Origin: Nitrospira sp. | Lineage (GTDB): Bacteria; Nitrospirota; Thermodesulfovibrionia; Thermodesulfovibrionales; SM23-35 | NCBI GenBank assembly: GCA_016873615.1 | Contig: VGWX01000015.1 | Location: forward strand, 1-40,539 | Direction of reading: 5' to 3' | DNA: 40,539 nucleotides | In this document: one piece after another, positions 21,825 to 40,417 of the stretch | Numbering within the stretch: the first letter of the stretch is position 1 | How the letters are laid out: each line of letters starts with the position of its first letter | Notes under the pieces: model-generated | Seen by the model: only the letters and a program-made list of their open reading frames with translations | The model's database searches: none | What the model was told of the DNA's origin: nothing | Translations under genes and position numbers: made by a program

Positions 21825-21926
21825 TTGACATTAGTTCAGGGTTTTTGATAACTTTAAATCAGGAACAAGCCACGAAGGCTGAAAAGATGACCGGAAGGTC
21901 AGAATGCTTTCGCGGCTTTTATTTTG
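21825..21926 (+). promoter_or_regulatory. Promoter plus CCACGAAGGC hairpin leader, copy 1
   Basis: TTGACA (21825-21830) with GATAAC after 16 bases precedes a folded element at 21867-21920. Its outer stem pairs AAGCCACGAAGGC with GCTTTCGCGGCTT (one mismatch, one wobble), its inner hairpin is TGACC-GGAA-GGTCA, and a T-rich run follows. It stands 45 bases before the His-rich gene, where it could act as an attenuator, and about 60 bases after pheT, where it could act as a terminator. Confidence 0.7.
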
Positions 21927-25224: not shown

Positions 25225-26796
25225 ATGTTCGTAAAGATATTTTCGCTATTCCTTATAGGGATTATCTTTTTAAACGGATGCAGGGGAAACGCTGAAAAGA
25301 GACGTTCGGATGATACCCTGGCCATTGCCATATCCTCGGAACCGAAACGTCTGAATCCCTTATTTCTTACCGATTTGATCTCTTATTCGGTAAGCGGACT
25401 GATTTTCAGGGGACTTACAAAGTTCGACAAGGATATGAGCATTGTCCCGGATATTGCAGAATCATGGGAGATATTGCAGGGCGGACACGAAATACGATTT
25501 CATCTCAAGAAAGGTGTATTGTGGCATGACGGAGTTGAGCTGACCGCGGACGATGTTGTCTTCACATATCAGACTGTCACTTCCCCGCAGACCACAACCC
25601 ACCATAGCAGCCACTTCGGTCCGTTAGAAAAAGTAAAAGCTCTTGACAGGTATACCGTTTCGGTCTCCTACTCAAAACCCTATGGATCAGCCCTCGAGAG
25701 CTGGACATTCGGTCTCATCCCGAAACATGTCTTATGGAACAAGGATATTCATGATGTATCGTTTGATCAAGCTCCTGTAGGAACGGGCCCGTACCGGCTG
25801 AAGGAATGGGTGAATGGACAGAAACTATGGCTTGTATCATTCGACAGGTATCACGACGGAAGGCCAAAGATACGGAATCTATTCTTGCGCATTATTCCAG
25901 ATGCAGCAACTCAGATGATGGAGCTGAAAGCAGGCACTGTCGATGGAATGGAACTTTCACCCGTACATTACCGGCTGGAAGCAGATTCCGGGATGTTTTC
26001 CTCCAACTTCATAAAGCATCGGGCCGGCTCTTTCAGATGTGGTTTTCTTGGATTCAACCTTCTGGATAAAAGATTTCAGGACAAAAGGGTTCGTCAGGCT
26101 ATCAGTTATGCAATCGACAAAGACTCCATAATCAATTCTGTTTTCATGAAACTCGGAAGCAGATCAACCGGACCCTATCCTCCGGAGGCCTGGTATTACA
26201 GCAAGAAAGCAGCATATTACAAGTATGACCCTCATAAAGCTTTGCTATTACTGGAGCAAGCAGGCTGGAAAAAGGGGACAGATGGAATACTCCAAAATAA
26301 CGGTGATCGTATGTCATTTACAATCCTCACGAATTATGAGAACAAAGAGCACATAAAGACTGCCCAGCTAATTCAGAGCAATCTCAAAACGGTCGGGATT
26401 GCAGCGGACATCCGCACACTGGAATGGCAGGCATTCAGGCACAATGTGATCGGCAGGCATCAGTTTGAAGCAATCGTCCTTTCGCGCGCCTATCTCTGGG
26501 ATCCGGACATTTATGATCTCTGGCATTCGAGCAAGACAAAAGAAGATGAGTGGAATTTTCTGTCGTATAAAAATGCTGATGTTGATTCGCTTCTCGAAAA
26601 AGGGAGACGAATGGTTGAAAGAGAAAAAAGGAAGAAGATTTATTGGAAGCTGCATGAACTGCTTGCGGAAGAGCAGTCATGCATATTTCTCTATAATGCC
26701 GACCTTCTCTTTATTACCCACCGGAGGATTAAGGGAATCGATCCTTCTCCTGCCGGGACATTCTATAACATTGCAGAATGGAGAATTGAGCGCTGA
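25225..26796 (+). CDS. SBP_bac_5 solute-binding lipoprotein (oligopeptide/nickel type)
   Basis: 523-residue periplasmic binding protein of ABC family 5 (OppA, DppA, NikA, CntA). Lipobox FLNGC predicts a lipoprotein (Cys about 19). Family blocks seen: LAIAISSEPKRLNPLF, FHLKKGVLWHDGVELTADDV, APVGTGPYRLKEW, and DKRVRQAISYAIDKD. It starts 10 bases after the receptor. No permease or ATPase of the matching Opp/Nik type is in the window, so it may use a distant transporter or work with the receptor. NikA and CntA bind nickel complexes, which suits the locus; peptide binding is equally possible from sequence. Confidence 0.88.
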   Translation: MFVKIFSLFLIGIIFLNGCRGNAEKRRSDDTLAIAISSEPKRLNPLFLTDLISYSVSGLIFRGLTKFDKDMSIVPDIAESWEILQGGHEIRFHLKKGVLWHDGVELTADDVVFTYQTVTSPQTTTHHSSHFGPLEKVKALDRYTVSVSYSKPYGSALESWTFGLIPKHVLWNKDIHDVSFDQAPVGTGPYRLKEWVNGQKLWLVSFDRYHDGRPKIRNLFLRIIPDAATQMMELKAGTVDGMELSPVHYRLEADSGMFSSNFIKHRAGSFRCGFLGFNLLDKRFQDKRVRQAISYAIDKDSIINSVFMKLGSRSTGPYPPEAWYYSKKAAYYKYDPHKALLLLEQAGWKKGTDGILQNNGDRMSFTILTNYENKEHIKTAQLIQSNLKTVGIAADIRTLEWQAFRHNVIGRHQFEAIVLSRAYLWDPDIYDLWHSSKTKEDEWNFLSYKNADVDSLLEKGRRMVEREKRKKIYWKLHELLAEEQSCIFLYNADLLFITHRRIKGIDPSPAGTFYNIAEWRIER

Positions 26797-26817: not shown

Positions 26818-26887
26818 AGATTCCTCTGGGACTTGCTAACCCTCCGGAGGATTTGGGTGCGGGGAGCCAGGCCCGCACCCGTCTTTT
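26818..26887 (+). promoter_or_regulatory. Conserved terminator-bearing leader, element A copy 1
   Basis: About 70 bases nearly identical to 32396-32466. The 5' part can fold as CCTC-T-GGG...CCC-TCCG-GAGG (26823-26850), and a perfect nine-base terminator stem follows (GGGTGCGGG 26855-26863, CCCGCACCC 26872-26880, then CTTTT). ACCC at 26839-26842 could instead pair with GGGT of the terminator, giving a possible antiterminator. Only the terminator loop differs between copies. It lies between the lipoprotein and the 66-aa gene. Riboswitch-like; no known family recognised. Confidence 0.65.
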
Positions 26888-26940
26888 ATAAGAATTGGAA
26901 CACCAGAAGGTGTTCTCTTCATAAACAAACAGATATGCAT

Positions 26941-26996
26941 GTAAGTTACGAAAACTTACCACCTCCTAAGAAAGGATGGAAAAAACAGAAGGAGGC
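26941..26996 (+). promoter_or_regulatory. Palindrome and RBS-masking hairpin before the 66-aa gene
   Basis: GTAAGTT-ACGAA-AACTTAC (26941-26959) is a perfect inverted repeat. Just after it CACCTCCT (26961-26968) is complementary to the RBS AGGAGG (26991-26996) of the next gene, so pairing would hide the ribosome-binding site. The palindrome could be a protein operator or a part of this RNA fold. Confidence 0.5.
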
Positions 26997-27001
26997 GTTA
27001 T

Positions 27002-27202
27002 ATGGAAGAGATTGCAAAGGTTAAGGACTTAATCGAGTACTGGATGAACCACAATGAAGAACATGCGGAAAGCTATATGAAATGGGCAACTAAAGCTTCG
27101 GATGCAGGGAATGAAGAGTTATCGAGGAGCCTGGTAAGAATATACCTTGAATCAAAACGATTGAACAGACTTTTCGAAGTTGCAAAAAAAGCAAGCTGTT
27201 AG
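27002..27202 (+). CDS. Small helical protein, 66 aa, metal-cluster associated
   Basis: 66-residue predicted all-helical cytoplasmic protein with no signal peptide. Core motif LIEYWMNHNEEHAESYMKWA followed by a second helix; it ends KKASC. I recall similar short W-x-x-HN-x-EH-x(3)-Y-x-KWA domains near nickel/cobalt and corrinoid genes, but cannot name the family with certainty. The two His and acidic residues could bind metal. RBS GGAGG is well placed and may be masked by an upstream CCTCCT. It precedes the second TonB receptor. Confidence 0.75.
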   Translation: MEEIAKVKDLIEYWMNHNEEHAESYMKWATKASDAGNEELSRSLVRIYLESKRLNRLFEVAKKASC

Positions 27203-27380
27203 AAAAGGGGGTGATAAGAATCAGATTTGAGGCCTGAGATTTCAGATTGAAAAATTCTAAAAAAATTAGGGGCAGGGAGGATCTTTGGCGGGACCCCCTG
27301 CCCCAAGAGGAAACGCTGCGAAATACAACGCCCCCTTGTCATTATTGTAGCAAAAGGGGGTGAGAAAAAAGGAGGGACGA
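27203..27380 (+). promoter_or_regulatory. Structured leader of TonB receptor 2, element B copy 1
   Basis: This 178-base leader aligns with 34105-34248. It holds a strong stem, GGGGCAGGG (27269-27277) with CCCTGCCCC (27296-27304), a conserved GGAAACGC/GGCAACGC segment, and a second stem CCCCCTT (27331-27337) with AAGGGGG (27354-27360) directly before the RBS AAGGAGGG. Position and conservation suggest a translational riboswitch or thermosensor-like control. No known aptamer consensus (cobalamin, TPP, NiCo) was recognised. Confidence 0.55.
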
Positions 27381-29711
27381 ATGAGAGATGTTCTAAAGAT
27401 TATTGTGAGCGCTTTTTTTGTTTTATTGATTTCTATCTCAGTAGCAATGGCAGAAGAAATAGAGAAAAAAGATATTGAGAAAAAGACAAAAGGGGAAGAA
27501 GCACAACTTGAAGAAATCGTCGTTACTGTTACGGGCAAGATCGTAGACGAATCCATTATGAATATGCCTGCTGTAGTGGAGTCGCTGACTCCCGAAGGGA
27601 TCGAACGAATCAACACCATTGACACGTCGGACATTTTCAAATACATGCCCGGGTCCTATTTGAGAAAGCTGTATCCCGGTGCCAACAATTCTCCGCTTGT
27701 TATCCGTGGAAACAACTCAACCATGACTGGACGAACACTGGTTATTGCAGACGGACTCTTTCTTAGCGATTTCACCGCAGCCGGTAACAGCAATGCGCCG
27801 AAGTGGCAGATGGTCTCTCCAGGCGAAATCGACACCATGGACATGATCTACGGACCATTTTCAGCGGCGCTGAGCGGCAATTCGATGTCAGGAACCGCTG
27901 TTATCACTACTCATATGCCTCAGAAAAGGGAGATCGAGGCAGACGCCACCTACACCTTCCAGAACTTCAGGGAGTATAAGAGCGATTTCCACCTTAATAA
28001 TTATAATGCGAATGCATACTATGGTGATAAAATCGGACCATTGTCTTTTTCGATCTGGGCTGACCGCCTGCAAACCCGCGCTCAGGGAATCATGTATACC
28101 ACTGTACTGGAATCCTCCGGAAAGGACCCCGGCAGTGCTATCCCCGTAACCGGATGGGATACCGACAAAGACCCCAAAGATCGAACGAGATATATCCTTG
28201 GGAGTCAGGGTGTGCAGGACATAGCGAACACCACAGGAAAGATCAAGCTGGGCTATGACCTGACGCCCGAGTCCCAGGTGCGTTTAACCTTGGGTTTTTG
28301 GGACAGCACTCAGGAGCGTAACAATCCCCAAACCTATCTGCGCGACACCAATGGGAATCCCGTATATTCAGGCAATGTGAATATCAACGGCAAAAGTTAT
28401 ACGTTGAATCAAAATGCATTTACTTACTCAAAATTGGAGAAGCAGGATCTTCTTACCGGTCTGACTTACTCGTACAAATCTCCCAATGGGATCAAAGTAT
28501 TTGCCGGGGTGAGTTCCTATAGCAGCCCCAGGGACATCACCTGTACGTCAAAAAGCAGTCCTCCGGCATCCGAACATGGCGGCGCCGGTACAGTCACAGA
28601 CAACGACAACGGATGGTATACGGCCGATCTGAAAGGCTCATATGAGGTTATAATGAAAGGAATAGGCATCCACACGATTGGCGCAGGATACCATTATGAT
28701 CGTTATTACATAGACTCTGAGGTATGGAATGCATCGGACTGGGAAAGTGACGACAGAACGATCCTGAGTAAAGGGGAAGAAGGGAAAACACAGATTCACG
28801 CCATTTTTATCGATGACACATGGGATATAACAAAGCAATGGTCAGTATATCTGGGCGGCAGGTATGAATGGTGGAAAGGCTTTGACGCCTCCAAATCGAC
28901 CGACTCCGCATCAGGACGTCTTACGAGCAACCTCCCGGACAAGAGCGATAGCGGTATATCTCCCAAGGCATCGGTGACATTCAGACCCACAGATGAATGG
29001 AGAATCCGTTTATCCCTTGCCCTTGCAACCCGTTATCCGACTGTTGGAGAACTGTACTATGGAGGGATCACTTCCTCAGGGGTTATCAACAATAATAATC
29101 CTGACCTGAAACCGGAAAAGGATTTTGCCAAGGACTTTACAATTACCCGCGCTATAGGAGAAACAGGTGAAGCCCGCTTGACCTTCTTTGAAGACTATGT
29201 AAGGGACGCCATCTACAGTCAGACCAATACGTATACAAATGTAACAAATTTTCAGAACGTAGAAAAAGTGAGAACGAGGGGTATCGAGGTTGCTTTTAAC
29301 GAACGGAAATTCCTTATTGACGGACTCGGGGTTTTCGCAAACTTGGCATGGACCGATTCCGAGATCCTGGCTAACGCAAACGTGCCGGCGAGCGTCGGCA
29401 AGGATTTTCCGAGGGTGCCGGAGTGGCGTGCGAAAATCGTTCTTGACTATGCGCCTACAGAGCGCTGGTTCATAACAGTTGCCGGACATTACTCCGGCAA
29501 GCAGTACGGGGAACTGGACAACAGCGACAAACATGACGGGGTATATGGGGCGATGGACGAATTCTTGGTGTTCGATACCAAATTTTCATACAGATTACTG
29601 AAAAACCTGCGGGCATCGGTCGGCATTGATAACATCACCGACGAACTTTATCACGTGTCACACCCCTATCCCCGGCGGACGTATTATGCGAATCTGAAAT
29701 ATACGTTTTGA
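27381..29711 (+). CDS. TonB-dependent outer-membrane receptor 2
   Basis: 776-residue TonB-dependent receptor. Signal peptide MRDVLKIIVSAFFVLLISI..AMA, then a charged Lys/Glu stretch and a TonB box-like LEEIVVTVTGK. The plug includes TSDIFKYMPGSYLRKLYPG, SPLVIRGNNSTMTGRTLVI and a YGPFSAALSGNSMSGTAVI segment. A beta barrel follows and ends YYANLKYTF with terminal phenylalanine. The ATG at 27381 has RBS AAGGAGGG; an upstream in-frame GTG at 27360 would place the start inside the leader stem. It is followed by two DUF4198 genes, which points to a metal or metal-chelate ligand. Confidence 0.92.
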   Translation: MRDVLKIIVSAFFVLLISISVAMAEEIEKKDIEKKTKGEEAQLEEIVVTVTGKIVDESIMNMPAVVESLTPEGIERINTIDTSDIFKYMPGSYLRKLYPGANNSPLVIRGNNSTMTGRTLVIADGLFLSDFTAAGNSNAPKWQMVSPGEIDTMDMIYGPFSAALSGNSMSGTAVITTHMPQKREIEADATYTFQNFREYKSDFHLNNYNANAYYGDKIGPLSFSIWADRLQTRAQGIMYTTVLESSGKDPGSAIPVTGWDTDKDPKDRTRYILGSQGVQDIANTTGKIKLGYDLTPESQVRLTLGFWDSTQERNNPQTYLRDTNGNPVYSGNVNINGKSYTLNQNAFTYSKLEKQDLLTGLTYSYKSPNGIKVFAGVSSYSSPRDITCTSKSSPPASEHGGAGTVTDNDNGWYTADLKGSYEVIMKGIGIHTIGAGYHYDRYYIDSEVWNASDWESDDRTILSKGEEGKTQIHAIFIDDTWDITKQWSVYLGGRYEWWKGFDASKSTDSASGRLTSNLPDKSDSGISPKASVTFRPTDEWRIRLSLALATRYPTVGELYYGGITSSGVINNNNPDLKPEKDFAKDFTITRAIGETGEARLTFFEDYVRDAIYSQTNTYTNVTNFQNVEKVRTRGIEVAFNERKFLIDGLGVFANLAWTDSEILANANVPASVGKDFPRVPEWRAKIVLDYAPTERWFITVAGHYSGKQYGELDNSDKHDGVYGAMDEFLVFDTKFSYRLLKNLRASVGIDNITDELYHVSHPYPRRTYYANLKYTF

Positions 29712-29772
29712 GGGACGACCTGGCAAAAGAATATTGGTAACTAACAATAAAAATTTAGAAAGGATGAACTAT

Positions 29773-30504
29773 ATGAAAATACACAGACTTAGATTCTCTA
29801 CGAGCATCTTTTTAGTATTTTTTTGTTTCCTCATGAATTCCATTCCGGCAGTTGCTCACGACCTATGGCTTAATGTTGATAATCCGTATCCTGCAGTTGG
29901 AGAAAAGGCGACCGTAAAGGTGGTGTTCGGTCACAATTTCCCTTATTACGACATTCTGATCAGCAGAGCAAGTCTTGCAGAGTTTGCCTGCCTTGCGCCT
30001 GACGGACAAAAGAACGAAATCACTAAAACATGGGAAGATAAGACAGGAGAAAGGTCAGGCGCTTTAGTTGGAGAGATCATTCCCGACCAAAAAGGTTCAT
30101 ATATAATTACCGCTTACCGGAAGATAAAAGGAGACAAGCAACATGTAGCATCTGAAAAGTATGCCAAATCAATTATCTCCACAGGTGAAGGGAAAAGTAG
30201 TATCAGCAAACCTTTAGGTCACCGGATCGAGATTGTTCCGTTGAAGGACCCGAGGGATTTAAAACCGGGAGAGACTATTCCTGTCAAAGTTCTTTTTGAA
30301 GGAAAGCCATTGGCAACATACATATACGCAACCTATGCAGGGTATTACTCTGAAGATGAACCATTTCCCTTATTCACGAAGAGTGGTGAGGATGGAATTG
30401 GATATATGAAGATAACTCAGCCCGGGACGTGGATGGTTGTATGCAACCATAAAGTTGATTTCTCGGCCTCACTGACCTTTAAAGTATCCGAGGCATCCAA
30501 ATAG
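29773..30504 (+). CDS. DUF4198 / NikK-like periplasmic protein 1
   Basis: 243-residue exported protein. A signal peptide ends in IPAVAHDLWLN, leaving the mature protein with an N-terminal His-Asp, a feature of the DUF4198 group annotated as nickel transport (NikK/NikM-like) components. The conserved block VVFGHNFPYYD and the second half IEIVPLKDPRDLKPGETIPVKVLFEGKPLA (here split in my description) match the family pattern of two beta domains. It shares the IVPLKDP motif with the next gene. I chose ATG 29773 (AAAGGA eight bases upstream) over the ATG at 29764. Function as a periplasmic metal-handling factor is inferred from the family. Confidence 0.82.
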   Translation: MKIHRLRFSTSIFLVFFCFLMNSIPAVAHDLWLNVDNPYPAVGEKATVKVVFGHNFPYYDILISRASLAEFACLAPDGQKNEITKTWEDKTGERSGALVGEIIPDQKGSYIITAYRKIKGDKQHVASEKYAKSIISTGEGKSSISKPLGHRIEIVPLKDPRDLKPGETIPVKVLFEGKPLATYIYATYAGYYSEDEPFPLFTKSGEDGIGYMKITQPGTWMVVCNHKVDFSASLTFKVSEASK

Positions 30505-30516
30505 GGGGACAATAAT

Positions 30517-31224
30517 ATGAAGATAAAACTGTTTGCAACTATCGTAATCATTCTCATTTTGACACAGTCAGCATTTGCCCATCACCTCTGGATAGAAAAA
30601 GAAGATGGTGTTTTCAAAGTTTTGTGGGGTCATCCACCAGAGATAAACCCTTATGAGCCTGAAAAGCTAAAAGAGGCAAAGGCTTTTGACATCAATGGGA
30701 AGGAAGTCGCATTAACAAGGAAAAATGAAAAAGATATGGTTTACTTATCCTCAAAGTCGAACGTCTCAATTATAGCTGTTTCCTTTGAAGGTGGTTATCT
30801 TGTGACCACCCCTGATGGAAAAAAGAGAGCTACAAAAAGAGAGGCTGCAAAAGCAGGACGGCAGATAATCGACTCAATTTATTCTTCACAATATGCCAAG
30901 GGGTTATTTGCCTGCAGTGAAAATACGGCAAAGCCCTCCGGTTTAAAATTCGAAATTGTTCCTCTAAAAGATCCTTGCAAATTAAAGGTAAATGATATCC
31001 TTCCAATCAGGATATATTTCGATGGAAGGCCTCTTGAAGGCGCTACAGTGGAAACAGGAAACCATGCAGAGTCCGGCAAGACCGGTAAAGAAGGACAATT
31101 CAACATCAAGGTTTCCGAACGGGACAAGCACATTATTTTGGCGAAGTACAGGATTCCGGTAAAAGATAACCCTGATGCCGATTTCTTTTCCTATACCACA
31201 GCTCTGACATGGGAGATAAAGTGA
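30517..31224 (+). CDS. DUF4198 / NikK-like periplasmic protein 2
   Basis: 235-residue exported protein related to its upstream neighbour. Signal peptide MKIKLFATIVIILILTQSAFA leaves an N-terminus HHLWIEKEDG; the mature His-His start is a likely metal ligand. WGHPPEINPYEPEKLKEAKA and FEIVPLKDPCKLKVNDILPI (about residues 147-166) are the recognisable blocks, and the C-terminal LTWEIK ends a beta-rich domain. RBS GGGGGA is upstream; it starts 12 bases after the previous gene. It resembles the NikK component of NikKLMQO systems, but NikMQO are absent here. Confidence 0.82.
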   Translation: MKIKLFATIVIILILTQSAFAHHLWIEKEDGVFKVLWGHPPEINPYEPEKLKEAKAFDINGKEVALTRKNEKDMVYLSSKSNVSIIAVSFEGGYLVTTPDGKKRATKREAAKAGRQIIDSIYSSQYAKGLFACSENTAKPSGLKFEIVPLKDPCKLKVNDILPIRIYFDGRPLEGATVETGNHAESGKTGKEGQFNIKVSERDKHIILAKYRIPVKDNPDADFFSYTTALTWEIK

Positions 31225-31691
31225 GGATAATAGTTGGCATCCTGGTAGCATGCTTTTTAATGGCCGGACTTAATTGTCCGGCCTTTGCCCATTCTGTCCA
31301 CTATCAGGTCGAGAACAAGGGGATAAGCGTGAGGATTTTCTATGCGGAGGATGACCCGGCAAGCTATTCCACGTATGAGATATTCGGGCCGGGAGACAAA
31401 ATAGCCCACCAGAAGGGGAGGACGGACAAAAATGGTTTTGTCTCGTTTCTTCCCGACAGGAAAGGGAACTGGGTCATAAAGGTCTATGGAGAATCCGAAC
31501 ATGGTATGCACGGCGCCCAGGTTGTGGTTGATGTAAACGAGAATCTGTTTATGGAATCGTTCAAGAAGCCGCTGGTTGCGAAGTATACAAAGGCGTTTGT
31601 TGGGATCAGCTTCCTGCTTGCGCTCTTCGGATTGTGGGCGCTGGCAAGCTCACGGAAGAAAGGGAGGACGGAGGAGCAACGGAAATCCTGA
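31221..31691 (+). CDS. NikL-like membrane-anchored exported protein
   Basis: 156-residue protein with a signal peptide (VRIIVGILVACFLMAGLNCPAFA), a mature start HSVHYQVENKG, a beta-rich domain with DKNGFVSFLPDRKGNWVIKV, and a C-terminal transmembrane helix (FVGISFLLALFGLWALA) with a positive tail. This is the arrangement of NikL/CbiL-type accessory proteins. The GTG at 31221 overlaps the previous stop (GTGA) and has GGGAG five bases upstream; an ATG at 31209 is an alternative. It completes the receptor-NikK-NikK-NikL operon. Confidence 0.75.
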   Translation: MRIIVGILVACFLMAGLNCPAFAHSVHYQVENKGISVRIFYAEDDPASYSTYEIFGPGDKIAHQKGRTDKNGFVSFLPDRKGNWVIKVYGESEHGMHGAQVVVDVNENLFMESFKKPLVAKYTKAFVGISFLLALFGLWALASSRKKGRTEEQRKS

Positions 31692-31772
31692 CCCGAATTC
31701 ATAAAATTGGCACGGCATCCGGGGACAGTGTATTTGAGCGGTTTTTCCCCGGCTATCACCGGCTATCAAATA

Positions 31773-31801
31773 TTGACTTAAAGTCATTTTAGTGATATAA
31801 A
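31773..31801 (+). promoter_or_regulatory. Strong sigma70 promoter with overlapping palindrome
   Basis: TTGACT (31773-31778), 17 bases, TATAAA (31796-31801). The palindrome TGACTTAAAGTCA (31774-31786) covers the -35 box and first part of the spacer, where a repressor would block polymerase. It drives the 53-aa His-rich gene. Confidence 0.7.
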
Positions 31802-31828
31802 TATAATTAGAAAGGGAGGTGATGATAT

Positions 31829-31990
31829 ATGTGCTGCCATAATAAGGAAAAGCATGAGCACGAGCATGAGCACAAGGAGATAACGCATTCTCATGATGGT
31901 CATAAACATAAGCATTTAGTAGCGAAGCATAAACACGAGCATACTCACGATGACGACCATCACAAACACCAGCACAAGTGCTGTCATTAA
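31829..31990 (+). CDS. Histidine-rich Cys-flanked metal-binding peptide, 53 aa
   Basis: Tiny protein with 19 His and 4 Cys in 53 residues. It begins MCCHN and ends KCCH, with HxH runs between (HEHEHEH, HKHKH, HDDDHHKHQHKCCH). The paired cysteines at both ends suggest a closed metal-binding loop. No signal peptide. RBS GGGAGGT is eight bases upstream of the ATG. It has its own promoter at 31773-31801 and is followed by copy 3 of the CCACGAAGGC hairpin. Likely a metal store or chaperone; the metal is inferred (Ni, Co or Cu). Confidence 0.8.
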   Translation: MCCHNKEKHEHEHEHKEITHSHDGHKHKHLVAKHKHEHTHDDDHHKHQHKCCH

Positions 31991-32076
31991 AGGGAAGCCA
32001 TAAGTTTTAAGAAACAAGCCACGAAGGCTAAAACCGGGTCAGAAGACTTGGGAGGTATTCGTGGCTTCCCTTTTTT
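31991..32076 (+). terminator. CCACGAAGGC hairpin, copy 3, with competing stem
   Basis: AAGCCACGAA (32016-32025) pairs perfectly with TTCGTGGCTT. The 3' arm extended by CCCT also pairs perfectly with AGGGAAGCCA at 31991-32000, so two alternative folds share one arm. The inner stem is GGGTC/GACTT (with wobbles) and six T residues follow. It sits just after the His-rich stop codon and is the best candidate for a true terminator in the family. Confidence 0.65.
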
Positions 32077-32205
32077 ATCTGAGGCTATTATTTTATTGCA
32101 TCACCATCCTGACAATAGTTCTCCATGTAGTTATTTAAGCAAGCTTATTAGGATCATTTAGAGTATTCCACAAATTATCTCAACCTATCACAACCTATCG
32201 CTCTC

Positions 32206-32262
32206 TTGACATACTGCAGAATCTTCCAGTATCTTAAATATATCCTGAACACGAAGTTCAGG
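32206..32262 (+). promoter_or_regulatory. Promoter and GAAC-type hairpin before copy 4
   Basis: TTGACA (32206-32211), 18 bases, TATCTT (32230-32235), then a perfect hairpin CCTGAAC-ACGAA-GTTCAGG at 32244-32262 near the expected transcript start. The stretch 32077-32205 before it shows no gene or other signal. Confidence 0.5.
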
Positions 32263-32285
32263 GCAATCGTTCGGCAGTTTAGAAC

Positions 32286-32346
32286 AAAGGCCACGAAGGC
32301 TTTAAAAAGGTCAGCAGACCTGATAGCTTTGTGGCTTTTTTGTTTT
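32286..32346 (+). promoter_or_regulatory. CCACGAAGGC hairpin leader, copy 4
   Basis: GCCAC/GTGGC and AAGGCT/AGCTTT form the outer stem with one bulged G; the inner hairpin is AGGTC-AGCA-GACCT and six T residues follow. No gene ends within 290 bases upstream, and a TTGACA promoter lies 80 bases upstream, so this copy is a leader rather than a gene-end terminator. Confidence 0.7.
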
Positions 32347-32395
32347 TGCAGGTTTGATTTTTACGGTAAATGATGATGAACGATATGAAAATAAA

Positions 32396-32466
32396 GATTT
32401 CCTCTGGGACTTGCTAACCCTCCGGAGGATTTGGGTGCGGGTATCCAGACCCGCACCCGCCTTTTT
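32396..32466 (+). promoter_or_regulatory. Conserved terminator-bearing leader, element A copy 2
   Basis: Near-identical to 26818-26887, differing mainly in the terminator loop (TATCCAGA against GAGCCAGG). Terminator stem 32433-32441 with 32450-32458, then GCCTTTTT. It stands 54 bases before tonB, placing two terminator-like structures (copy 4 and this) in series before the TonB-ExbB-ExbD operon. Confidence 0.7.
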
Positions 32467-32519: not shown

Positions 32520-33272
32520 ATGAATACACACGGGTTGGGATATACGCACGAGCAGCGCTACGGGATGATAACTTCACTTTCAATTCATACTATTATCTTC
32601 ATGCTGTTTTTTGTGCTCTCTCTTATGAAAAGCAGTAATGACGTTAAAACATTTTATATCCAGTTTTCCCAGATGGGTGAAGAAACGCCTCAGGCAGTTC
32701 AACCCGCCAGAGAAATAAAGAAACCCAGGGCTGTTGAGCCGTTGAAAGAAGCAAGAAGGGAAGAGGTACGGGAAGAAACTCCAAAGATTAAAGATACCCC
32801 TGCTGAAGAGCATGAGGCAGTTATAAGGAATGAGGTAACAGAAAGCCCTGATTCCGTCAAAGTGGCAAGCGCTCCAGAACCTGCATCGCAGCCACAGGAA
32901 ACTCCGTATCAGAGCGGTGGAAGCGGAAGCACAGTCAGTAATGTCTCATATAGCGCACCGTCCGGCGGTGCCGGCATGATGGAGACAGAGTTCGGTTCGA
33001 GCGGAGCTCCCGCTTTTTTAAGAAGACAGATGCCTGCTTATCCCATGATGGCAAAGAAGCTCGGCAAACAGGGCAAGGTTGTGTTACGCCTCTACATAAA
33101 TGAAAAAGGGAGACTGCTCAATGTTGAAGTTGTTGAACCGGCAGGCTACGGTTTTACGGAATCTGCTGTGGAGGCGGTGAAGATGTCAACCTTTTCCCCT
33201 GCGCATGAAAAAGGAACAAGCATTGCATCAAAGGCTCTGCTCACCATCCGTTTTGTATTGAAGAAGAGCTGA
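32520..33272 (+). CDS. tonB: TonB energy transducer
   Basis: 250-residue TonB protein. A single N-terminal transmembrane helix (ITSLSIHTIIFMLFFVLSLM, about 17-36, with the His found in TonB anchors) is followed by a Pro/Glu/Lys-rich spacer (about 55-130), a Ser/Gly-rich stretch, and the C-terminal TonB domain (about 165-250: RQMPAYPMMAKKLGKQGKVV, GRLLNVEVVEPAGYGFTESA). It couples the proton motive force through ExbB-ExbD to outer-membrane receptors; three receptors lie nearby. It is first in tonB-exbB-exbD. Confidence 0.93.
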   Translation: MNTHGLGYTHEQRYGMITSLSIHTIIFMLFFVLSLMKSSNDVKTFYIQFSQMGEETPQAVQPAREIKKPRAVEPLKEARREEVREETPKIKDTPAEEHEAVIRNEVTESPDSVKVASAPEPASQPQETPYQSGGSGSTVSNVSYSAPSGGAGMMETEFGSSGAPAFLRRQMPAYPMMAKKLGKQGKVVLRLYINEKGRLLNVEVVEPAGYGFTESAVEAVKMSTFSPAHEKGTSIASKALLTIRFVLKKS

Positions 33273-33293
33273 TATGAAAAAGGAGATATCTGT

Positions 33294-33728
33294 ATGGAAT
33301 GGCTTTCAGCAATAGTAGATTACGGGGTAATCGGACTTCTTGTAATCATGAGTATCATAGCAGTTTCGGTCGCGGTGGAAAGGATGCTTGTATACCGGAA
33401 TATCAGACTTGAAGATTTTTCTGATAGAAAAATGCTGGAGATATATCTCACAAAGAAACTGCACATCATAGCTACAATCGGCAGCAATGCGCCGTATATA
33501 GGACTGCTTGGAACTGTGCTCGGCATTATGCTCACCTTTTACACAATTGGCAAGGAAGGGCTCATAGATACGAGCAAGATAATGACCGGACTTGCCCTCG
33601 CACTGAAGGCAACGGCGATAGGGCTTGTCGTCGCCATTCCCTCAATTACCTTTTATAACTTTCTCCTGAGAAAGGTGAAAGTACTTGTCGCAGAATGGGA
33701 GACCATGAATGGAAGAAAAAGAATTTGA
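33294..33728 (+). CDS. exbB: ExbB/TolQ/MotA-type proton channel protein
   Basis: 144-residue inner-membrane protein, shorter than E. coli ExbB (244) as in many compact ExbB proteins. Hydrophobic helices at about 10-27 ([20 protein letters not shown]), 62-82 ([20 protein letters not shown]) and 100-122 ([20 protein letters not shown]) carry the conserved GLLGTVLG and [11 protein letters not shown] motifs. RBS AGGAG is eight bases upstream. It overlaps exbD by 20 bases. Confidence 0.93.
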
Positions 33729-34104
33729 TTATATGAATGTCATCCCGCTGGTGGATGTGATGCTCGTGCTGCTCACGATCGTCCTTACCACATCGACGTT
33801 CATCGCCTCGGGAATGATAAACGTATCGTTGCCGAAGGCCTCTGCCGAACATAAGGAGATTCTGAAAAACCAGACAATATCCATACATAAGGACGGGACG
33901 ATCTATTTCAATGCCGCTCCTATGACACTTGATCATCTGAAAGAGAACGTAATCCGTCTTGATAAGGAAACACCTATTGTGATCCGCGCTGACAGGGACA
34001 TCAGGCTTCAGGTATTTGTGGATGTCCTGGATATTATCAATAACCTCGGCTTCAGGAAAGTTGCAATTCAGACAGAAAAAGGAGGTGATGGGAATAAGAG
34101 TTGA
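33709..34104 (+). CDS. exbD: ExbD biopolymer transport protein
   Basis: 131-residue partner of ExbB. One N-terminal transmembrane helix with the essential Asp in [17 protein letters not shown] (Asp near residue 16), then a periplasmic domain with [31 protein letters not shown], typical of ExbD. It starts within exbB. Its last codons (GGDGNKS) lie at the start of the region resembling the leader at 27203, so the stop codon sits beside element B copy 2. Confidence 0.93.
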
Positions 34105-34248
34105 GAATTGAGATCAGAAGCTCATAAATAATCAGGGCAGGGCTAACCCCTGGAAGGATCCCCTGCCCCGGAGGGCAACGCTTACTACACGTCATCCCCA
34201 TCTCATTGTATCACAAAGGGGGTGACAGAAAAATATCAGGAGGGATAT
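34105..34248 (+). promoter_or_regulatory. Structured leader of TonB receptor 3, element B copy 2
   Basis: Aligns with 27203-27380. Stem GGGCAGGG (34135-34142) with CCCTGCCC (34161-34168) is conserved, as are GGGCAACGC and the ACAAAGGGGGTGA before the RBS. The enclosed GCTAACCCCTGGAAGGAT resembles the GCTAACCCTCCGGAGGAT core of element A, hinting that A and B are related. Confidence 0.55.
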
Positions 34249-36279
34249 ATGTATATGAGAATGTTGTGCATGATCTTACTGTCACTATTCATTTCGGTAA
34301 ACACATATGCCGCAGAGGTAGAGAAGAAGCAGGAAGATAAAAAAGCATATGCGATGGAGGAAATTGTTGTAACCGAGAGCAAGATTCCACAGACAGAAGA
34401 AAACATCACACAGAAGATAGATGTGATAACTCAGGAAGAGATTGAACGCACGAACTACAACAACAGGAACATCTCTGAGATGTTCCTGTATCAGCCCGGC
34501 ACATTTATCAGTGTGCTGTCACGCAATGACGCCAACTGGGGCTCATATGGCGGTCTAGGCCCGAAATATAATGTCTATCTTCTGGATGGGCTTCCGATAG
34601 ACTCTTTTGTTGACACCATGAGCCTTGATCCGTGGATACTTGAGCGGGCAGAGGTCCATAGAGGACCCGCTTCTGTAATGTACCCTAACTACCTGAATAT
34701 GGACTTTGCCGGGAATGAGGCCCCTTTGGCAGGAATCACCAACCTGATTCTCAAGGATAAGATTGAAATACCGCAGACCAGGATCCAGCTCGGATACGGT
34801 TCATGGAATACCCTGAATGCCAAGCTCTATAATCAGGGCAGCAAGGGAGATTTTCATTATTTCATCGGCGCCAACTATGAGCAGTCGGATTATACTGATT
34901 ATGGGACGGATCCTTCCTGGCTGAATATGATCGATAATCCGGAGTATAAAAAGACCAAGCTCTATTTCAAGACTACATACTTTATAGAGCCGGACAAACA
35001 GTCAGTATCGCTTTTTGCCAACCATACACAGCACACCGGCGATGCAGGAAGGCCGAACAGGGGGTTCGACCACATCTATGATACTATCAACGCAGCATAT
35101 AAAAACCAGATCGATGACGCATGGAACCTGCAATTAAAAGTTGGATACCGTTACTATAACCGAAGCTGGGAAGAGGATAATTTTCCCGATTTAAGCCTTC
35201 GTGAAAAAGATGCCGTCAAACAAAACATCATCCCTGCTGATCTGGCAGTAAACTTCAAGCATCTTGGAAAAAGTGTCCTCACCTTTGGAACAGACTTTCA
35301 GTATGCCGACTATAAGACCACAGCAGAAGTAGACGGAGAGAAATCGACCGGCAATAAGGTCGATGCCATGAGCGCCGGGGTCTATGTCCAGGAAAAATTT
35401 GTATACGACAAATGGGTTTTCCGTGCAGGCGGCAGATACAGCTATACCAAACATGAATATGATTTGATCGGTGGAACAGAGCCTGCTGACGAGAACAAAT
35501 CATGGGATAAATTTCTCTGGAGCGCGGGGATGAGGTATAATGCCATGCCATCTCTTGCATTCTTTGCAAATGCAGGGAAAAGCTATCTCATACCGTCAGC
35601 AAAATCCGTTGGCGGTACACTCAGCCCCGATGATATTGGAGTGCCCGGCATGAACGGACAGCTGCCGAATCCGAACCTCAATCCGGAAAGCGGGATCGGA
35701 TATGACATAGGAACAGAAATCACACCAATAGAGAATCTCTATGTCGGAATCCGTGGTTTTTACAATGTGGTTGATGATGCAATAGTGGAGAACCGCGTGA
35801 GCGAAGATCCATCACAGAGCCAGTCGGTGAACGCAGGAAAAGCCAAATCCATTGGCGCTGAGATTGAGATCAAACAGTGGCTGAACAAATACGTTTCATG
35901 GTTTGCCAATTACACATATACACACACTAAAATCGAAAATGATGTAGACCCTGACCAGGATGGAAGCGAAGTAACGTTTGTCCCGAACTCTGTAGCCAAC
36001 TTAGGGATTACTGCGAATCTTCCATATGATATAACGGTCTCTCCGTACCTCCATGCAGTCGGCAAATACTATGACAGCACATCAAAGAGCGGAAGACAGA
36101 AGTTCGGCCCGTACGAGATCGTGAATATAAAAGCCGGAATGGCTCTTTTGAAAACGAAAGCCTATCAGGCAAATTTAAACGTGGATCTGAATAATGTAAC
36201 AGACAAGAAATTTGAAATGCCCTGGCAGTTCCAGGACCCTGGATTCAATGCACATGCAAGCATAGAGATCGTTTTTTAA
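34249..36279 (+). CDS. TonB-dependent outer-membrane receptor 3
   Basis: 676-residue receptor. Signal peptide (MYMRMLCMILLSLFISVNTYA), charged Glu/Lys stretch and TonB-box-like MEEIVVTESKI, then a plug with ISEMFLYQPGTFISVLSRND, YNVYLLDGLPIDSFVDTMS, LERAEVHRGPASVMYPN and a divergent GITNLILK. The barrel ends NAHASIEIVF. ATG 34249 lies four bases after the RBS AGGAGGG; ATG 34255 is possible, and an in-frame GTG at 34222 lies within the leader. It follows exbD and precedes the ABC importer, so all may serve one ligand. Confidence 0.92.
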   Translation: MYMRMLCMILLSLFISVNTYAAEVEKKQEDKKAYAMEEIVVTESKIPQTEENITQKIDVITQEEIERTNYNNRNISEMFLYQPGTFISVLSRNDANWGSYGGLGPKYNVYLLDGLPIDSFVDTMSLDPWILERAEVHRGPASVMYPNYLNMDFAGNEAPLAGITNLILKDKIEIPQTRIQLGYGSWNTLNAKLYNQGSKGDFHYFIGANYEQSDYTDYGTDPSWLNMIDNPEYKKTKLYFKTTYFIEPDKQSVSLFANHTQHTGDAGRPNRGFDHIYDTINAAYKNQIDDAWNLQLKVGYRYYNRSWEEDNFPDLSLREKDAVKQNIIPADLAVNFKHLGKSVLTFGTDFQYADYKTTAEVDGEKSTGNKVDAMSAGVYVQEKFVYDKWVFRAGGRYSYTKHEYDLIGGTEPADENKSWDKFLWSAGMRYNAMPSLAFFANAGKSYLIPSAKSVGGTLSPDDIGVPGMNGQLPNPNLNPESGIGYDIGTEITPIENLYVGIRGFYNVVDDAIVENRVSEDPSQSQSVNAGKAKSIGAEIEIKQWLNKYVSWFANYTYTHTKIENDVDPDQDGSEVTFVPNSVANLGITANLPYDITVSPYLHAVGKYYDSTSKSGRQKFGPYEIVNIKAGMALLKTKAYQANLNVDLNNVTDKKFEMPWQFQDPGFNAHASIEIVF

Positions 36280-40319: not shown

Positions 40320-40417
40320 TTGACATTACTATAGTTCCTATGTGATTATAAAAACGTAACAAGCCACGAAGGCTTACAAGATGACCAGAAGGTCAATAAT
40401 AGCTTTCGCGGCTTTTT
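40320..40417 (+). promoter_or_regulatory. Promoter plus CCACGAAGGC hairpin leader, copy 5
   Basis: TTGACA (40320-40325), 18 bases and GATTAT with an extended TGT. The hairpin (40361-40417) begins 35 bases after the -35 box, almost the same spacing as copy 1. Outer stem AAGCCACGAAGGCT/AGCTTTCGCGGCTT (one mismatch), inner hairpin TGACC-AGAA-GGTCA, then seven T. It leads into the partial gene at 40444. Confidence 0.7.

Follow-up and report, generated by a model that had tools for sequence, protein, structure and literature searches.

Element A, a small leader of about 60 nt that occurs twice in the window (the whole 40,539-nt stretch of DNA analysed here), is probably a new cis-acting transcription attenuator of the pseudoknot type in front of genes for TonB-dependent metal uptake. 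Our computations yielded its conserved parts, an intrinsic terminator, two pairings that would exclude each other, and its restriction to TonB genes across ten copies from one Nitrospirota family.

Two near-identical leaders in unrelated surroundings

The first copy, A1, spans positions 26821-26887 and the second, A2, positions 32399-32465, both on the plus strand and both delimited by repeat comparison, folding and the two covariance models described below (R1 and R2). Pairwise comparison aligns them without gaps over 67 nt at 94% identity, with differences confined to the terminator loop or to the bases just 3' of the stem. By contrast, their 60-nt flanks are 37% identical upstream and 30% downstream, i.e. 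at background level: the similarity of A1 and A2 is far beyond chance, and the earlier note was right to single them out as near-identical leaders in unrelated surroundings. The window's own genome contains exactly two copies of the 21-mer core, allowing up to 3 mismatches.

The fold proposed at the outset, a hairpin in the 5' half followed by a terminator, is likewise recovered in both copies: each folds into a 9-bp hairpin (P1) and a 9-11-bp terminator with a U-run, and none of 200 dinucleotide shuffles folds as well (z = -2.9 and -4.6). P1 of A1 (26822-26851) consists of arms 26822-26830 and 26843-26851 around the 12-nt loop ACTTGCTAACCC (26831-26842); its terminator (26855-26887) consists of stem 26855-26863/26872-26880 and the tail GTCTTTT. 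P1 of A2 (32400-32429) has arms 32400-32408 and 32421-32429 around loop 32409-32420, and its terminator (32433-32465) has stem 32433-32441/32450-32458 and the tail GCCTTTT. The putative pseudoknot would pair ACCC at the end of the loop with GGGT downstream of P1, i.e. 26839-26842 with 26855-26858 in A1 (26839-26858 overall) and 32417-32420 with 32433-32436 in A2 (32417-32436 overall). In A1, GGGT 26855-26858 also forms the first four bases of the terminator stem.

Homologues in one Nitrospirota family

A search for homologues, which the earlier note had suggested for the regions upstream of TonB/Nik genes, yielded 8 further copies, all located before TonB-system genes. As a first step, 396 genomes of the phylum were searched with a pattern, which led to one relative (G008); as a second step, the loci of the gene encoding a 66-aa protein (see below) were scanned, which gave two more copies. 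A covariance model built from A1 and A2 alone (R1) recovered homologues at E-values down to 4e-13, and its refined successor (R2) gave the final set: ten copies, spread over 8 genomes and 6 genera, all within the window's own Nitrospirota family. The 8 copies outside the window genome come from 7 further genomes of that family, two from G007 (G007a and G007b) and one each from G008, G018, G012, G004, G005 and G016, the last being the weakest match (36.5 bits). The presence of homologues in 7 other genomes speaks against the two window copies being products of a recent duplication with no counterparts elsewhere.

No match outside the family was obtained in searches of the order, the class (230 genomes) and the sampled phylum (396 genomes), with an E-value threshold of 0.01 for class and phylum. 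A degenerate pattern run over 84,980 species returned 17 matches: 6 were true and corresponded to known members of the family (records labelled Nitrospirae, Nitrospiraceae, Nitrospira or Thermodesulfovibrionales), and the remaining 11 fitted the covariance model poorly. An exact search of viral contigs for a 22-base core gave nothing. Candidates were discarded when they were single matches inside coding genes (L003, L004), matches with mismatches (L007-L009, L012 and L013, the last two within one aminotransferase-like gene), located inside tonB of G017 (L051) or inside a helicase-like gene (L064), or due to a palindromic terminator matched on both strands (L063); weak matches in other families were dismissed as chance or false positives. 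We conclude that element A is real, that it is old enough to occur across six genera, and that its distribution is narrow, the ten copies falling in one family and searches elsewhere giving no convincing match.

Conserved structure and the putative pseudoknot

Three parts are nearly constant across the ten copies: the loop end GYUAAYCC, the apical helix of P1 (UCYGGR/UCYGGA) and the foot of the terminator. The consensus P1 reads UCCUCYGGR/UCYGGAGGA; in G012 and G018 its outer three pairs are weak or missing. Its loop is 12-14 nt long and ends with GYUAAYCC in all ten copies, nine of which have a U just before this motif, whereas both the sequence and the length of the 5' loop half vary. The strong conservation originally ascribed to the whole segment ACTTGCTAA thus holds within the window genome, where the segment is invariant, but in the other genomes constancy is limited to its GYTAA part. 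P1 is followed by a short linker and by a terminator stem that opens with GGRU, usually as GGGUGCGGG; a U-run follows the terminator in 8 of 10 copies (G007b and G016 being the exceptions). One MAFFT alignment was set aside because it misplaced the 5' arm in the copies with a 13-nt loop.

Four pairs of the terminator display two-sided changes, a level of covariation reached by 2 of 500 shuffles. The pairing of P1 is kept through GU/GC/AU exchanges, all of them one-sided; two-sided covariation is lacking because the P1 sequence hardly varies.

The loop end AYCC is complementary to GGRU, which is common to the terminator foot and to the loop pairing in 9-10 copies. The pairing is mostly ACCC/GGGU; it becomes AUCC/GGGU, with a wobble, in G018 and AUCC/GGAU in G012, so that a CG to UA double change restores it in G012 with G018 as the GU intermediate. 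In G012, GGAU also puts an A.C mismatch into the terminator stem: the change mends the loop pairing and breaks a terminator pair, and hence follows the loop, not the terminator. This compensatory event, observed in one genus, is suggestive of a pseudoknot. The counts of pseudoknot pairs do not exceed those in shuffles, the support coming from this double change and the one wobble; only three of the four pairs can form in G005, and in G004 the pairing requires a terminator realigned by hand. The idea that an ACCC/GGGT pairing would compete with the terminator has gained a conserved pairing with one compensatory change.

The geometry of such a pseudoknot imposes a constraint on P1. A stretch of 6-7 nt can cross a 6-bp helix, not a 9-bp helix. 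UCYGGA is mostly separated from GGRU by 6-7 nt, and a full 9-bp P1 leaves a linker that in most copies measures 1-4 nt, which would not suffice for a classical pseudoknot, so the outer three pairs of P1 would have to open. Two other pairings were noted in individual copies: an alternative GGG/CCC inner stem of the window copies was rejected for lack of conservation (GGA or GGT stands there in most other copies), and pairing of CCAGA in the terminator loop with UCUGG of P1 is found only in five close copies.

A proposed switch between readthrough and termination

We propose that the nascent RNA folds into P1, with its loop ending in GYUAAYCC, and that AYCC then pairs with GGRU just downstream to give a small H-type pseudoknot; P1 and the pseudoknot could both form before the terminator is complete. 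Because the terminator stem has GGRU at its foot, the pseudoknot and the terminator would be mutually exclusive: keeping the pseudoknot would allow readthrough, and losing it would lead to termination. The computed energies (about -20 kcal/mol for the terminator, about -9 kcal/mol once its first four pairs are removed, and about -4.5 kcal/mol for the pseudoknot pairing) suggest that termination is probably the default and that an effector stabilizing the pseudoknot would favor readthrough. The opposite sign can also be envisaged: an effector holding the loop would favor termination, as expected for repression by an abundant metal.

We infer that an effector, one connected with nickel or cobalt, tips this balance and is recognized through P1 and the conserved GYUAA loop; it could be a protein or a small RNA as well as a metal or a chelate. 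An aptamer for a small molecule or a metal is a plausible option, if one that falls somewhat short of probable; the variability of the 5' half of the loop across genomes weakens the case for ligand binding. A protein or small-RNA partner is possible, albeit rather unlikely; the constancy of GYUAAYCC, of the apical helix and of the terminator foot would also fit an attenuator that binds a protein or an RNA.

Genes downstream of element A

All ten copies lie in the sense orientation directly before TonB-system genes. In the window, A1 begins 24 nt past the stop codon of a gene for a NikA/Opp-like periplasmic binding protein (25225-26796), an arrangement also found in G005, and is the leader of a gene for a 66-aa protein (27002-27202), the gene for TonB-dependent receptor 2 (27360-29711) and the NikK- and NikL-like genes. 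A2 precedes tonB (32520-33272), exbB (33294-33728) and exbD (33709-34104), together 32520-34104, through which it reaches TonB-dependent receptor 3 (34222-36279); all genes given here with coordinates are on the plus strand. The gene neighbors initially reported for the two copies, tonB-exbB-exbD for one and the 66-aa gene with receptor 2 for the other, are thus confirmed. Among the homologues, the G008 and G004 copies precede tonB-exbB, the G016 copy precedes exbB-exbD, those of G005, G012, G018 and G007a have a TonB receptor directly downstream, and that of G007b is followed by the 66-aa gene and then a receptor.

Most pairs of receptors located behind element A are at most 35% identical, the exceptions being those of G012 and G018 (79%) and the G007a receptor, which has element A directly upstream, and window receptor 3 (84%). 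Furthermore, exbB of G016 is of a different subtype. As the receptors are mostly non-orthologous and this exbB is of another type, element A tracks function rather than inherited synteny. The window's own genome encodes only four TonB receptors.

The nature of the cargo is suggested by the gene context, from which nickel or cobalt is the likeliest. Besides the NikA/Opp-like binding protein, the window locus encodes two DUF4198 proteins and NikK- and NikL-like proteins. The 66-aa protein, which belongs to no Pfam or NCBIfam family and is present in 74 of the 101 genomes searched, is a stand-alone version of a domain found in other Nitrospirota as the C-terminal domain of NikO/CbiO-like ABC ATPases with a His-rich linker. 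NikR, sought through its NikR_C domain, was detected in none of 20 genomes of the window's family (the positive controls were detected), which argues against a NikR operator.

Several features lie close to individual copies. A2 sits downstream of a promoter-like site (32206-32235), and the G007a copy has a selenocysteine tRNA (L046 1939-2036, minus strand) on its upstream side. The two G007 copies (L046, L060) are 82% identical over the upstream 60 nt, including a GCGATATCG palindrome, and differ in their loops; the common upstream stretch is possibly a shared promoter or operator. In the G016 copy (L062 1501-1567, minus strand), which lies before exbB and lacks a U-run, the end of the stem adjoins GAGGGACTGATG, as if this copy acted on the translation start instead of termination.

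Alternative explanations

An unlikely alternative, albeit the best of those considered, is that a regulatory RNA-binding protein reads P1 and the GYUAA loop and so decides whether the terminator can form, in the manner of protein antitermination. A constant apical helix and GYUAA next to a variable 5' loop half would be typical of hairpins that proteins recognize, and A1 and A2 are more alike than copies from other genomes with matching downstream flanks, as would befit sites of a shared factor. However, the copies share no linked gene for a candidate protein, and a protein site alone would not need the partner at the terminator foot that covaries with the loop.

It is improbable that the copies are plain intrinsic terminators which, stabilized by an upstream hairpin, end the upstream transcript or fix a level of readthrough and sense nothing. 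This would account for the good terminator and U-run of 8 of 10 copies and for the position of A1 behind the NikA-like gene and of A2 behind another terminator-like structure; but ordinary terminators are not limited to TonB genes, nor do they conserve loop, P1 arms and stem (GGGUGCGGG) base for base across genera amid random flanks.

Very improbable is a DNA operator, in which a repressor would bind P1 (TCCTCYGGR...TCCGGAGGA) or the terminator palindrome as double-stranded DNA. Although both are conserved inverted repeats before regulated genes, they keep a single orientation relative to the gene in 10 of 10 copies, the half-site spacing varies (loop lengths differ by 1-2 nt), G.U pairs stand in for Watson-Crick pairs and a U-run follows; moreover, A1 lies within an apparent operon, and a promoter-like site looked for nearby was not found. 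Finally, leader-peptide attenuation, in which TGYTAA (9 of 10 copies) would be a Cys codon plus stop and the ribosome position would choose between P1 and the terminator, is scarcely credible and was rejected for want of a reading frame conserved across the ten copies: an in-frame upstream ATG exists in A2, G004, G005 and G016, but in A2 and G004 it is not preceded by a Shine-Dalgarno sequence, five copies (G007a, G007b, G008, G012 and G018) have no in-frame start, G007a reads CGGTTAA, the frame differs among copies, and loop lengths of 12-14 nt exclude coding.

Other repeated leaders in the window

Two further repeated leaders were noticed. One, located at 27266-27355 and 34130-34205 and also at L049 ~1710, L050 ~1678 and L051 ~2890, follows the pattern GGGCAGGG...CUUUGG...CCCUGCCCC.AAAGG.AA.GC.. 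and runs up to the ribosome site of genes for TonB receptors, where it ends. It could form a CUUUGGG/CCCAAAG pseudoknot in some copies, has no Rfam match in the window, and looks like a translational regulatory RNA. The other, located at 21857-21920, 32006-32075, 32278-32340 and 40349-40415, follows the pattern AAGCCACGAAGGCT ... hairpin GACC..GGTC ... AGCTTTCGCGGCTT plus a T-run and is often found behind a TTGACA-type promoter; within the window genome its exact core is restricted to this contig, with one copy in tandem upstream of A2.

Comparison with known RNA switches

The pseudoknot-type attenuator proposed here has one general trait of terminator-type riboswitches, being a conserved structured leader RNA found before functionally related genes in several genomes. 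In the transcriptional fluoride (crcB) riboswitch, a small pseudoknotted leader, the rearrangement involves a downstream intrinsic terminator that overlaps the pseudoknot sequence (PMC11077080). Element A would be alike in this overlap and in the proposed readthrough upon pseudoknot stabilization, but differs in sequence and in lying before TonB uptake genes instead of fluoride exporters. The class I preQ1 riboswitch is very small, with a single hairpin whose loop pairs downstream into an H-type pseudoknot; element A resembles it in its tiny size and, as proposed, in design, and differs by its GYUAAYCC loop and its TonB-dependent transporter genes. With the NiCo (czcD) RNA, which controls transcription termination typically over exporters, element A has metal-related genes and termination control in common, but it is smaller than the multi-helix NiCo junction. 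That riboswitches can control TonB-dependent receptors is well established, as cobalamin riboswitches precede btuB-type receptors; the cobalamin aptamers are far larger than element A, and Rfam finds none in the window. Indeed, no covariance-model match to element A was found for the fluoride, preQ1, NiCo and cobalamin families or for any other family of Rfam 15, whether at gathering thresholds over the whole window or in permissive scans of the surroundings of the element and of the homologous loci, and no description of such a motif was found in the literature. We file element A as an undescribed leader RNA that would work like a pseudoknot-terminator riboswitch, outside any named class.

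In its most specific form, which we regard as decidedly unlikely, the proposal is that element A represents a very small pseudoknot riboswitch class, confined to one Nitrospirota family, whose ligand is nickel, cobalt or a metal chelate and which replaces NikR over TonB-dependent uptake. Element A is small and directly testable in vitro. Should it be confirmed, the energized outer-membrane uptake machinery itself (tonB, exbB and receptors) would prove to be controlled by an undescribed family of regulatory RNA in bacteria devoid of NikR, and element A would serve to mark the nickel or cobalt uptake regulon of uncultured Nitrospirota.
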